Both the position numbers and the translations under genes were made by a program. From Paenibacillus phyllosphaerae (GTDB lineage Bacteria; Bacillota; Bacilli; Paenibacillales; Paenibacillaceae), in assembly GCF_014192105.1 (NCBI RefSeq), contig NZ_JACHXK010000011.1, positions 62,001 to 126,000 of the forward strand: a DNA stretch of 64,000 nt, in the 5' to 3' direction. This document shows positions 35,066 to 58,161 of the stretch, one piece after another. Below the pieces are notes generated by a model. That model was not told where the DNA came from and ran no database searches. It was given only the letters and a program-made list of their open reading frames with translations. The first letter of the stretch is position 1. Each line of letters begins with the position of its first letter.

Positions 35066-35139
35066 TATGGATATGTATATTGGAGCTCGGATACTCGCAA
35101 CCGAGACATTTTCAGTTGGCCCTTAAAGGAGGAAAACCT

Positions 35140-36213
35140 ATTATTTTTAACGAGGTTGTCAACAACAGTGAAGCCTATTTACTTGCACTAGCATCCGAGT
35201 TGTATTCGTTGGAAGGCTATGAATTCAGGCCGGTTGAAGCACATGCCGGAGGGAGAAACCTGGTCTACAGCTGCGAGCGAGAAGGCGCTCCTGCCAAAAT
35301 ACTGCGAATCGCTTTCTTAACCGACAGGAGCCGGGAAGACTTGTTGGGCGAGAATGAATTTATCCGGTATCTATTCGAGCATGGCGGCAGCGTCGCGAAT
35401 GTGGTCAACTCCATCAAAGGGAATCTGGTCGAAGAGATCACGCATCATAATCGCGTTTTTTTCGTCTGCCTGTTCGAAAAAGCCAGAGGCAAGAAGCTGG
35501 TGGACCATAATTACCGGTATCGGGAAGGGGTCCCTATTACCGAATATTATTATAACTGCGGCAAAGTCCTGGGGAAGCTGCATCAATTGTCGAAAGAATA
35601 CCAACCTGTCCATCGCCGGTACCGTTTTTCGGATAAATATAATACCGCATATATCGATCAACTAATCCCCGACTCCTTATCGCCGCTTAAGGAGAAGCTG
35701 GTGGAGCTCCTTCATACCTTAGAAGGACTGGACACGGCCCCTGAATCTTACGGCATGATCCATCTGGATTACAACGACGGGAATTATATGATCGATTATG
35801 ATACCGGCCAAATAACGGTTTACGACTTCGATAATTCCTGTTTCGGCTGGTATATGTATGACCTGGCGGATCTCTGGAAAAGCGGAGTGGGCTGGATCGC
35901 TGCTGAACCCGATGCGGGGAAACGCCAAACATTCATGGATGAATATTTTAAGACGGCCCTCGAGGGATACCGTTCAGAGACCGGGATCCCTCCTTCGATG
36001 ATCGATCAATTGCCTTTGTTCATCCAAGTCACTCTTATGGAACGGATCGTTGATACATTTGAGCATATGCGGCGCAACGGTGAAGAGACGACGTGCGACG
36101 AAGAGTTGTCTTATTGCATCAAATGCCTGGAAGACGATATCCCGTATATGGGGTTTTTCCATGACATCTATTCGTGCGAGGAACCCTTTGCGTATGAGGA
36201 ACGGAACATTTAG
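35140..36213 (+). CDS. Aminoglycoside-phosphotransferase-fold (APH) kinase
   Basis: About 357 aa. APH-family hallmarks: an N-lobe with EGAPAKILRIAF, the catalytic loop MIHLDYNDGNYMID (catalytic Asp about residue 212) and the metal-binding YDFDNS (about 233). The family phosphorylates aminoglycosides, choline, homoserine, amino sugars and more; nothing here proves antibiotic resistance. An ideal SD (AAAGGAGG) is followed after 7 nt by ATT-ATT, not by ATG/GTG/TTG, and upstream TTGs at 35080 and 35115 lie before the SD. I therefore propose ATT initiation at 35140 or 35143. A small-RNA-like unit follows the stop. Confidence 0.8.
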   Translation: MIFNEVVNNSEAYLLALASELYSLEGYEFRPVEAHAGGRNLVYSCEREGAPAKILRIAFLTDRSREDLLGENEFIRYLFEHGGSVANVVNSIKGNLVEEITHHNRVFFVCLFEKARGKKLVDHNYRYREGVPITEYYYNCGKVLGKLHQLSKEYQPVHRRYRFSDKYNTAYIDQLIPDSLSPLKEKLVELLHTLEGLDTAPESYGMIHLDYNDGNYMIDYDTGQITVYDFDNSCFGWYMYDLADLWKSGVGWIAAEPDAGKRQTFMDEYFKTALEGYRSETGIPPSMIDQLPLFIQVTLMERIVDTFEHMRRNGEETTCDEELSYCIKCLEDDIPYMGFFHDIYSCEEPFAYEERNI

Positions 36214-36253
36214 CCTCTTAGGGTACAAACTTAATCCTCATGTAATCTCTTTC

Positions 36254-36284
36254 TCAGGTTCATTTAAGATTCCATCCCTATAAT
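36254..36284 (+). promoter_or_regulatory. Activator-type promoter of small RNA unit 1
   Basis: Direct repeat TCAGGTT (36254) and TAAGATT (36265), 11-nt period, then 7 nt and -10 TATAAT (36279-36284); no -35. This is the layout of OmpR/PhoB-type response-regulator promoters. Copy 2 at 57089-57119 has identical geometry. Confidence 0.6.
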
Positions 36285-36288
36285 AAGA

Positions 36289-36349
36289 ACCAACAACCCC
36301 CCTTTAATATAGAACGACTGGAGCCCGCAGCGATGCGGGCTATTTTTTT
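36289..36349 (+). ncRNA. Candidate C-rich small RNA, copy 1
   Basis: A unit of about 60 nt from the predicted start to a terminator T-run. A 5' single-stranded segment with CCCCCCTTTA (36297-36306) is followed by an A/U-rich stretch and the hairpin AGCCCGCA-GCGA-TGCGGGCT (36322-36341) with seven Ts. Homologous to the unit at 57124-57187. The C-run could pair with G-rich ribosome-binding sites. The alternative is an attenuating leader of the SLH gene, whose ATG is 77 nt further on. Confidence 0.55.
36322..36349 (+). terminator. Intrinsic terminator of small RNA unit 1
   Basis: Eight-bp stem with GCGA loop and a T-run. May also end the APH transcript. Confidence 0.85.
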
Positions 36350-36425: not shown

Positions 36426-37016
36426 ATGAAGAAGGCATTGGGCCTGCTGGGGGCCGCAGCTCTATTATGGAGTCACTCCGCGGCGTACGCTGCTAACGAC
36501 AAGTTGACCGTCGCGGAGAAGTACGAAGCGTTCAAAAAGGCGGGCATATTCAAGGGCTACCCGGACGGGGAAGCTCATCTGGATGCGTCCATTACGAGAG
36601 CCGAACTTGCTGTCGTCCTGTCTCGGTTATTGGATCTGCAACCCCCTGCAAAGGCGGAAGCGGATTTCGTTGATCTCGAGGGGCATTGGGTCTCTAAGAG
36701 GACGATTAGCGCCGTGGCCTCCAAAGGTGTTATGGTCGGCAAAGGCAATGGCCGGTTCGATCCCGACGGGCTGGTAACGATCCAGGAATTGGCCGTTATT
36801 CTAACGCGCACGACCGGTCTTTCTCCTCAACAAACCACCATTACCGATGCCAAAGTATCCGAATGGGCTCAAGGGTATGTGGCAGCCGTCGTAGAGGCAG
36901 GTCTTATTGATCCGCAGCAGGATTATACCGCGCCTGCAACACGTGCGTTCGTGGTCGATGCCTCCTTTATGGAATACGAGACGTTGCCGCTTTACGTCGG
37001 AGCGCCTCATGAATAG
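36426..37016 (+). CDS. Secreted protein with S-layer homology (SLH) domains
   Basis: 196 aa. Signal peptide about 1-22 (MKKALGLLGAAALLWSHSAA, cleavage near AYA-AN). Three SLH-like units follow: GIFKGYPDGEAHLDASITRA, GVMVGKGNGRFDPDGLVTIQ, and a third around EAGLIDPQQDYTAPATRA. With SLH units only and no further domain, it is about the minimum for binding secondary cell-wall polymers. A wall-attached or regulatory role is inferred. GGGGGAGG lies upstream of the ATG at 36426. Confidence 0.87.
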   Translation: MKKALGLLGAAALLWSHSAAYAANDKLTVAEKYEAFKKAGIFKGYPDGEAHLDASITRAELAVVLSRLLDLQPPAKAEADFVDLEGHWVSKRTISAVASKGVMVGKGNGRFDPDGLVTIQELAVILTRTTGLSPQQTTITDAKVSEWAQGYVAAVVEAGLIDPQQDYTAPATRAFVVDASFMEYETLPLYVGAPHE

Positions 37017-56212: not shown

Positions 56213-57006
56213 ATGGATTTTCAGTTCTTCACGACAGACGACCAGGTCAAACTGGCTTACGCGGTGCAAGGGACAGGCCGGCCGATTGTGTTCGTATCCG
56301 GTTACAGCGCGGCTGGAGAGCTCTGGTTCTCTCAGGTGAAAGCCTGCGTTCAAGCCGGATTCCAGGCGATCGTGTTCGACCGGCGCAGCCACGGCTATTC
56401 CGATAATCCCGCCTATGGGCAGAGCATGCAGCGGCATGGCGAAGACTTGCATTAGCTCATTGGGCATCTGCGGCTTGTGAAGCCGATTCTAGTGGGGCAG
56501 TCTATGGGGGCATCCACTGTTTTTTCGTATCTGAATCAGTACGGGGAAGCGAACGTCAGCGCCGTCATCGACGTCGATCAGACGCCGAAAATCATCATGA
56601 CGCGCATTGGAAGCACGGGATGTATGACTCGGAGGAGATGGACTTCGAGCATTACCTGGACCGCGAGCTCCCTTCTCCTTTTTATAAAAGAGTGCCGCTA
56701 GGCGTCGTCATTCGCGTGCTGCTGCTGAGCCGAAAGCTGCCCAAATTCGACTTCGTGACCACCAAACCGCTGTTCCTCGATCATGTTCGCTCCGACTGGC
56801 GCCCTGTTCTGGAGACGTTGACGATCCCCATTCTCTTCCTTGCTGGCGCGCAAAGTCCGATGTGGCCCCCCAGCCACGCCGAAGCCACCGCGGCGCTATG
56901 CCGTAACGCTACCGTTCGCATTATAGACAATGCCGGGCATGCCGTTAACTTGGAGCAGCCTAAGGCGAGCAACGAGGCGATACTTCAGTTCATCCAGCGA
57001 ATCTAG
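56213..57006 (+). pseudogene. Broken alpha/beta hydrolase gene
   Basis: The frame starts MDFQFFTTDDQVKLAYAVQG with an alpha/beta hydrolase N-terminus (FVSGYSAAGELWF, VFDRRSHGYSDNP). It meets TAG at 56453-56455 where homologs would have Gln (CAG to TAG), and continues in the same frame with the nucleophile elbow VGQSMGAST. Near 56597 one base is missing (expected ATC-ATC-AAT-GAC; present ATCATCATGAC), shifting the rest (YDSEEMDFEHYLD... to IDNAGHAVNLEQP with the catalytic His) into another frame. Two independent lesions make it a pseudogene. It was probably a chloroperoxidase-like hydrolase. Confidence 0.88.
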
Positions 57007-57088
57007 CGTGCTAACTGGGGCAAGTGTGCGGTTATGAGAACAGTCTAATCGGCTTGAACGAAATCTTAATGTTAGCCTCATAAGCGCT

Positions 57089-57119
57089 TCAGATTACGTT
57101 AAGGTTGTCCGCTTATACT
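57089..57119 (+). promoter_or_regulatory. Activator-type promoter of small RNA unit 2
   Basis: Direct repeat TCAGATT (57089) and TAAGGTT (57100), 11-nt period, 7 nt, then -10 TATACT (57114-57119). Identical spacing to copy 1 at 36254. Confidence 0.6.
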
Positions 57120-57123
57120 TGGT

Positions 57124-57187
57124 TTCAACGACCCCCCTTTATTATATAGTTCGACTTGAACCCGCCTCCGCAGCGGGTTATTTTTTC
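57124..57187 (+). ncRNA. Candidate C-rich small RNA, copy 2
   Basis: CCCCCCTTTA at 57132-57141 lies 12 nt after the -10, exactly as in copy 1. Then an A/U-rich stretch, a CGACTtGAaCCCGC segment similar to copy 1, and the terminator hairpin. The unit is followed by about 165 nt with no recognised feature before the ANT-like gene; of 57007-57354 nothing else is identified. Alternative: a leader that attenuates that gene. Confidence 0.55.
57159..57187 (+). terminator. Intrinsic terminator of small RNA unit 2
   Basis: Stem AACCCGC / GCGGGTT with a 7-nt loop and six Ts. Confidence 0.82.
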
Positions 57188-57354: not shown

Positions 57355-58161
57355 ATGCAGCCTCCTGTAATTCCATTCCGGATTTCGGCGGGATGGCAGG
57401 ATTCCAATGTCAATGAAATGCTGCGAGTTCTGCTGCAAGGCATGCAAGAGCTCCTTGACGATAATCTCGTCGGGGTGTATCTGCGGGGCTCGCTCGCTTT
57501 AGGCGATTTTGATCCCGCGACAAGCGACGTTGATTTCTTGGCCGCGACTCAAATTCCCGTGACGGATGCAGCCTTGGCGGCGCTCGTGGATTTTCATAAC
57601 CGACTCGCGAAGTTTCCCAACCCCTATGCGAACGAGTTGGAAGGCGCGTATATCGACCTGGAAGGACTGCGGCGTTTTCAGCCAGGGCAGCCCTATCCCA
57701 CGTTATACCGCGGGGAAGGTCTACAGGTGACCAGGCATCAATCGAACTGGGTACTCGAACGATGGACGGTTCGCGAGCATGGCCTTACGCTCCTCGGACC
57801 GGATCCGCAACAGCTGATCGACCCTATTCCCGCAGAACGGCTCCGCGCCGCCGTCTCCCTTCGATTGCGCGATTGGGCGGACTGGTGCAGCCAAGTCGAT
57901 GACCCTGCATGGCAATTGCCGCTGAGCCATAAAGCTTATGTGATTGAGACGATGTGCCGAGTCCTCTATACGCTGGCTAATGGAGAGATCTGCAGTAAAC
58001 CGCATGCTGTTGCATGGGCATTAAGCACGCTTCCGGAGCCATGGCGTTCCCTGGTGGAACGGTCGCAATGCTGGCGAACGGACACCTTAACCACACCTGA
58101 TGATCCACTCATCGCTGAAGTGAGACGATTCCTGCTGTGGGTGACTGCCCAGGGGGCATAA
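57355..58161 (+). CDS. Aminoglycoside nucleotidyltransferase-like protein (AadA/DUF4111)
   Basis: 268 aa. Nucleotidyltransferase motif VYLRGSLALGDFDPATSDVD (about residues 40-58: GS, then two metal-binding Asp) and a C-terminal helical DUF4111 domain (SHKAYVIETMCRVLYTLANG, KPHAVAWAL). This is the ANT(3'')/ANT(9) architecture. Chromosomal relatives in soil bacilli may or may not modify antibiotics. SD GAGGTGAT 5 nt before the ATG. A small-RNA-like unit precedes it. Confidence 0.85.
   Translation: MQPPVIPFRISAGWQDSNVNEMLRVLLQGMQELLDDNLVGVYLRGSLALGDFDPATSDVDFLAATQIPVTDAALAALVDFHNRLAKFPNPYANELEGAYIDLEGLRRFQPGQPYPTLYRGEGLQVTRHQSNWVLERWTVREHGLTLLGPDPQQLIDPIPAERLRAAVSLRLRDWADWCSQVDDPAWQLPLSHKAYVIETMCRVLYTLANGEICSKPHAVAWALSTLPEPWRSLVERSQCWRTDTLTTPDDPLIAEVRRFLLWVTAQGA

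Follow-up and report, generated by a model that had tools for sequence, protein, structure and literature searches.

Do two short intergenic units in a 64,000-nucleotide stretch of the Paenibacillus phyllosphaerae genome (this whole stretch is called the window below) encode small RNAs of one family, and if so, what would switch them on and which mRNAs would they meet? An earlier note on this DNA had described two homologous units with shared promoter geometry and a C6 motif. Both are present in the window (36228-36349 and 57063-57186) and have a box array, a -10 element, a C6 seed, an A/U tract and a terminator in common, laid out as claimed (Table 1). The additional claim that all spacings are equal is correct as far as C6, but the gap between C6 and the hairpin is two bases longer in copy 2. 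Beyond the pair of boxes named in that note, each copy carries two extra boxes upstream (36228-36253 and 57063-57088), which gives an array of four. With up to two mismatches allowed, CAACRACCCCCCTTTA was found 2 times in the window compared to a mean of 0.03 in shuffled sequence, and none of 100 shuffles reached two; a chance origin of the C-rich core is excluded. The ends of the predicted RNAs follow a convention, with the start placed 7 nt past the -10 element and the end at the last T. Both units are intergenic: copy 1 is flanked by an ORF that ends at 36213 and an SLH-domain gene that begins at 36426, and copy 2 by two ORFs, of which one ends at 57006 and the other begins at 57355. The genes adjoining the copies, one with an APH-type phosphotransferase domain (copy 1; window 35080-36213) and one resembling nucleotidyltransferases with an AadA_C domain (copy 2; window 57355-58161), score far under the cut-offs of named resistance families.

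Table 1. Features of the two window units and loci listed for the comparisons in the text
Feature	Position	Strand	Remarks
Copy 1, box pair of the earlier note	TCAGGTT 36254-36260, N4, TAAGATT 36265-36271	+	
Copy 2, box pair of the earlier note	TCAGATT 57089-57095, N4, TAAGGTT 57100-57106	+	
Copy 1, four response-regulator-type boxes	36228..36271	+	11-bp period; lag-11 self-match 0.561 across 41 relatives
Copy 2, four response-regulator-type boxes	57063..57106	+	11-bp period
Copy 1, -10 TATAAT	36279..36284	+	7 nt after last box
Copy 2, -10 TATACT	57114..57119	+	7 nt after last box
Copy 1, C6	36297-36302	+	12 nt after -10
Copy 2, C6	57132-57137	+	12 nt after -10
Copy 1, predicted sRNA	36291..36349	+	59 nt; start and end inferred
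Copy 2, predicted sRNA	57126..57186	+	61 nt; start and end inferred
Copy 1, seed CCCCCCTTTA and A/T tract	36297..36312	+	single-stranded in predicted fold
Copy 2, seed CCCCCCTTTA and A/T tract	57132..57149	+	
Copy 1, intrinsic terminator	36322..36349	+	hairpin 36322-36341, T-run 36343-36349
Copy 2, intrinsic terminator	57159..57186	+	hairpin 57159-57179, T-run 57181-57186
Copies at the trxB locus	L113, L123, L246-L248, L250-L256, L258-L262, L264		
Sites of the same box type, in the gene order of the text	L213:7471-7617, L214:9511, L210:8881, L211:9522, L212:15532, L217:9424		

The two units are not alone. At least 11 units were identified in the own genome (7.9 Mb), and five of them, including both window copies, form one subtype (window subtype). 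The core pattern with at most one mismatch occurs there at six places, four of them exact; of the two others, one is a real copy and one the start of a gene. At E ≤ 10, a covariance model of the five own copies (R1) matched 24 places there, of which 11 were counted as members: the five that built the model and score by construction, and six others for which this does not apply (C3:277604, C15:177158, C3:467088, C11:179224, C14:53708 and C1:516318; E 1.7e-9 to 1.6e-4). The remaining 13 matches were set aside, three being terminator-only (L022-L024), eight promoter-only (L026-L032, L034), one degenerate (L025) and one (L033) the reverse strand of the copy 1 terminator. Two pattern matches are likewise no members: at C4:199521 (L001) the boxes are not followed by an sRNA, while C11:203619 (L009) is the start of a gene. 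Model R2 gave 12 matches in the own genome at E ≤ 0.001. A model from 43 diverse members (R3) was run at E ≤ 1 on 436 kb consisting of the window, 20 own stretches and one stretch from another genome, mostly picked around known matches, and its 13 matches comprise the 11 known units, one degenerate and one terminator-only match. A family of paralogous sRNAs, as proposed in the earlier note, is thus seen in the covariance-model scan of the genome, and matches extend throughout genus and family; where that note had named a lack of further genomic copies as an argument against its proposal, nine units besides the two in the window were found.

Two places in the own genome resemble the family less closely. 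The degenerate unit L013:947-1078 (C13, 143264-143395, minus strand) has CCCC and a weak E-value and lies about 0.4 kb from the C13:143818 copy. L216:9100-9440 (C3, about 317.1-317.4 kb, minus strand), which immediately follows a regulator-kinase pair, has four boxes, TATGAT and a short stretch bearing CUCUCCCC, and ends in a long hairpin with a T-run; it was missed by R3 and is a possible divergent paralog.

Similarity between five own copies is limited to about 125 bp. Identity amounts to 63.5% in the boxes and 79.9% in the RNA part, compared to 41.3% and 43.2% in the flanks and 37.6% after shuffling; conservation is therefore not restricted to the terminator, another finding that the earlier note had named as an argument against its proposal. 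From 5′ to 3′, the RNA consists of an open region that holds the C-run, then an AUAUA tract and finally the terminator. Both window RNAs are predicted to fold into a single stable hairpin, the terminator, with the seed on its 5′ side (folding z-scores -2.99 for copy 1 and -1.60 for copy 2), and weak 5′ pairings were seen in some relatives only. The C6 motif emphasized in the earlier note applies to the window subtype and some relatives, but the wider family carries C5: in alignments A4 and A3, which have members in common and contain many close relatives as rows, C5 is present in 43/43 and 42/43 rows, CCCCCTT in 41/43 and 32/43, and C6 in 8/43 and 28/43, respectively. The terminator stem stays paired while its sequence changes, with 98.3% of cells paired, compared to 33-55% for slid controls, and two-sided compensatory changes at 7 of 7 pairs; as the alignment had been fitted to the model, these counts lean towards pairing. 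We regard the units as almost certainly a real sRNA family.

This family is not confined to Paenibacillus phyllosphaerae. With R1 at E ≤ 0.01, each of the 22 genus genomes, the own one among them, had 2-14 matches, and with R2 at E ≤ 0.001 each of the 197 genomes of the family, belonging to 19 genera, had 2-12; E-values are rough because calibration was short. In the class, R2 matched 85 of 299 genomes (27 of the own family and 58 others), and R3 at E ≤ 1e-5 matched 191 of 398 (the own family accounts for 37, a second family of the order for one, and 153 are others); among the 20 genomes listed as having no match in the class searches, a minority of such genomes, none belongs to the own family. 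Outside the family, the sequences of 23 loci from the R2 search and of 20 from the R3 search, one of the latter from the order, were read. The layout is nearly always kept in these loci; it is less clear in L127 and L131, and L262 has CCCC in place of C5. Some of the remaining single matches outside the family may be due to chance. A scan for the exact pattern yielded 51 stretches, 23 of them from Brevibacillus, six from Aneurinibacillus, one from a Bacillaceae MAG and one from Anoxybacillus, which is near-identical to the Brevibacillus form. The other 20 (19 from outside Bacilli and Siminovitchia L143) were taken as chance matches, L143 being the one whose sequence was inspected. Several relatives from the genus have a tandem pair of units within 300 bp (e.g. 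L053:1354-1633 and L055:1352-1632).

Rfam 15 gave no match in the window at gathering score, and among 30 loci searched at E ≤ 1 no match over the sRNA reached this score. With regard to sRNA families described from Paenibacillus, from Brevibacillus or at the trxB-yvcI gap, the accessible passages of the open-access literature yield three Bacillus papers only (PMC3871023, PMC3713015, PMC4634765). The family, traced through much of the class Bacilli, may so far not have been recognised as one.

The genes next to the copies differ between lineages. The own copy C3:467088 has dtd and hisS as its neighbours, and hisS is preceded by a T-box-like match that stays below the Rfam gathering score. Since hisS is also near copies in other genera of the family (L085, L102, L110, L189), an orthologous locus is indicated. 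T-box-like matches below gathering score adjoin the sRNA in L018:1775-2041, L085:1100-1411 and L111:650-930, in L018 and L085 before hisS. In other families the copy directly follows trxB in 18 loci with ten family codes (Table 1), with a NUDIX gene, rapZ or both beyond as judged by motif; profiles confirmed both trxB and rapZ in L252, trxB also in L254 and rapZ also in L259. A second locus, near a ytkL-like gene, trmB or a CBS-domain gene, is found in Brevibacillus and Aneurinibacillus. Motifs of regulators or kinases adjoin the sRNA in 1 of 139 loci, as found by a regular-expression search that can miss cases, and position thus links no regulator to the family.

Unnamed transcripts are known from the trxB-yvcI gap of two Bacillus species, i.e. 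the 52-nt ncRNA BLi_r2828 of B. licheniformis (listed value 15924; PMC3871023) and an ncRNA of B. amyloliquefaciens FZB42 (PMC4634765) that corresponds to FZB42_3895 (PMC3713015). For the latter, fold changes of -2.05 and -1.85 are given with exudates of N- and Fe-starved maize, the columns being assigned from a flattened table (PMC3713015). These transcripts occupy the same gap as the family copies of the 18 loci, and transcription of this locus in Bacillus counts in favour of an sRNA; the source passages assign them no function, regulator or family (PMC3871023, PMC3713015, PMC4634765).

Upstream of the -10 element the boxes are arranged as direct repeats. Across 41 gap-free rows of A4, self-match of the array was 0.561 at lag 11 and 0.458 at lag 22, compared to 0.20-0.35 at other lags. 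This supports the OmpR-type direct repeats suggested earlier, with the correction that four boxes, not two, recur at an 11-bp period. Control by a response regulator appears probable. WalR is an essential cell-wall regulator. Of the 43 rows of A4, 30 match the WalR/VicR consensus TGTWAH-N5-TGTWAH (PMC4168254) exactly. Among other genus rows it was found in 9 of 29, and among later loci in 5 of 20 (mostly trxB copies), but none of 13 members of the window subtype has it, one A3 row (the degenerate L013:947-1078) being excluded from both groups; letter shuffles match the consensus at 0.03-0.15%. As the exact pair is a minority outside A4, the WalR reading is slightly lowered. A search of seven genomes for TGTAAY pairs followed by a -10 element gave six sites, of which five are at the sRNA.

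In the window subtype, TT[AC]AG-N5-NTTAAG-N10-(-10) was found in 8 of 13 members, all five own copies included, and this is the spacing of the streptococcal csRNAs. The strict CiaR repeat NTTAAG-N5-TTTAAG before a -10 element occurs in 0 of 13 members of the window subtype and 0 of 43 rows of A4. The analogy to csRNAs and CiaR drawn in the earlier note consequently holds for the geometry (N5, and a distance of 10 nt separating the last box from the -10 element) but not for the strict CiaR box. On C34, an OmpR-type regulator gene has a window-type array in its divergent promoter region, and on C3 such an array directly follows a regulator-kinase pair. The recognition helices of these regulators, IVEVYVRSLREKL and IVEVYIRSLREKL, agree in 8/13 and 7/13 residues with that of CiaR, VVEVYVSKVRKKL (PMC3091779). 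On this likeness the CiaR-like regulators of C34 and C3 are candidates, one or both of which probably read the boxes of the window subtype.

The RNA part directs attention to ribosome binding sites. The 16S anti-Shine-Dalgarno string is ACCUCCUUU, and the seed ACCCCC(C)UUU is one base off it. In 251 sampled ribosome sites of the own genome, which were chosen for a recognisable Shine-Dalgarno (SD) sequence, GGGGG was present in 22 and GGAGG in 103; the seed could thus tell apart a subset of genes, and it predicts selection of G-run ribosome sites over GGAGG sites. The fit of the C6 seed to G-rich SD sequences, as postulated in the earlier note, was not reflected in an enrichment of perfect complements, since AAAGGGGGGT at 2-10 nt before ATG was found once in the own genome and twice for the reversed control. 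All in all, we consider blocking of SD sequences a reasonable expectation, somewhat better than even.

Taken as a whole, trans-acting sRNAs that are driven by a response regulator and act with their C-run on G-rich SD sequences are our preferred reading, to which we assign a probability of roughly 0.66. Both window units would be genes of such sRNAs, about 50-65 nt in length, each with its own promoter and its own intrinsic terminator, from which transcription in this species is predicted. Two dimers of a response regulator of the OmpR/PhoB family may bind to the four 11-bp repeats ahead of the -10 element and switch the sRNA on. The single-stranded 5′ ACCCCC(C)UUU would then pair better with G-run SD sequences (AAAGGGGGU) than with GGAGG sites, and as long as the membrane sensor is triggered, ribosomes would be kept from loading onto a subset of mRNAs. 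WalR-type boxes are found in many relatives, the window subtype representing a duplicated branch with CiaR-like boxes.

Alternatively, the C-run may bind a protein or else a G-rich RNA, be it a sponge or a partner, and thereby titrate another regulator instead of acting on ribosome sites. The G-rich RosA of B. subtilis indeed binds the C-rich RoxS and FsrA (PMC8216469), and the lack of enrichment of perfect SD complements would fit; nevertheless, ribosome sites for the seed exist, as the GGGGG-containing SD regions demonstrate, and the C-rich sRNAs of low-GC Gram-positives described in the source passages act on SD sites (PMC4132741), which makes titration unlikely. The short RNA could also be the 5′ leader of the gene behind it, with the terminator serving as a signal-dependent attenuator. 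Several copies, including both window copies, precede a gene on the same strand, and those at the trxB locus precede same-strand NUDIX or rapZ genes. However, the genes behind the copies are mutually unrelated, no alternative antiterminator fold was found in five folded own copies, and 4 of 11 own copies (L013, L016, L019, L021) are oriented towards a converging gene that has a clear Pfam domain, an arrangement in favour of action in trans; we therefore judge a cis-acting leader very improbable.

That the unit encodes a short peptide starting ahead of the C-run is hardly credible: several members do have an ATG directly before the C-run, but it is missing in the window subtype and others, no SD sequence lies ahead and the frame is not kept. 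The last alternative concerns the promoters, which could belong to PhoP and hence to phosphate starvation and not to a WalR- or CiaR-like regulator, leaving the function of the sRNA unchanged. The PhoP box is TTAACA, and the last box TTTAACAT of some family copies resembles it. The pstS upstream regions of the same genomes, however, carry TTWACA-type boxes as judged by eye, compared to TGTAAY at the Brevibacillus sRNAs and TTCAG/TTAAG at the window copies, and the sRNA boxes are unlike them; PhoP is less likely for this reason, and we regard its involvement as quite unlikely.

The preferred reading, i.e. response-regulator-driven sRNAs acting in trans on SD sequences, has parallels in known systems. 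The csRNAs of streptococci are controlled by CiaRH through the box TTTAAG-N5-TTTAAG and consist of two stem-loops with an SD-complementary stretch between them (PMC3091779). They share with the present RNAs the occurrence as several paralogous short intergenic RNAs per genome, the terminator at the end, the unpaired SD-complementary stretch and an OmpR-type direct repeat with N5 and 10 nt between the last box and the -10 element. In contrast, the window subtype has the box TT[AC]AG-N5-NTTAAG and four boxes where csRNAs have two, and its RNAs consist of one terminator hairpin and a 5′ seed; homology to csRNAs is not claimed. LhrC of Listeria, controlled by LisRK, has three UCCC sites in two loops and in the single-stranded stretch between its stem-loops (PMC4132741). 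It is likewise a multicopy C-rich sRNA under a two-component system that pairs with G-rich ribosome sites, as the present RNAs would do, but these have one C5/C6 run in the open 5′ part and one hairpin. Because neither the csRNA box nor the LhrC anatomy was found when looked for, the family was not filed under csRNA or LhrC, though it would act alike. RoxS/RsaE and FsrA of B. subtilis also direct C-rich regions against G-rich targets in Bacilli, RoxS being controlled by ResD and Rex (PMC8216469); they lie at other loci, and the present loci gave no Rfam match to such families.

A more far-reaching version of this reading is tentative, and we rather doubt it in all its parts. The RNA would be an anti-SD mimic with one altered base (ACCCCCUUU for ACCUCCUUU). 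Many lineages would switch it on through WalR, while in the lineage of the window it would have been duplicated and placed under CiaR-like regulators, so that envelope signals would throttle translation from mRNAs with G-run SD sequences. If true, much of Bacilli (the own family, Brevibacillus, Aneurinibacillus and further families) would share a short sRNA absent from Rfam, and response-regulator signalling, possibly by WalRK, would be tied to translation via one seed. A function would be offered for the 52-nt Bacillus transcript, for which the source passages give none, and the lineage of the window would illustrate how such an sRNA multiplies and switches its regulator.

Boxes of these types were also seen away from the sRNA. 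The window type stands before a regulator divergon, a YceI-like gene, a gene for a secreted protein, an ApbE-like gene, a gene for another secreted protein and a gene for an HD-domain protein (Table 1), possibly a wider regulon. The sixth of the TGTAAY pairs, the only one without an sRNA, is located before an operon of a lipoprotein, an OmpR-type regulator and a kinase (L236:2300-5809; G373, Aneurinibacillus-type), and a three-box TGTAAY-type array precedes a glycosyltransferase-like gene (L190:1500-1530; G067).
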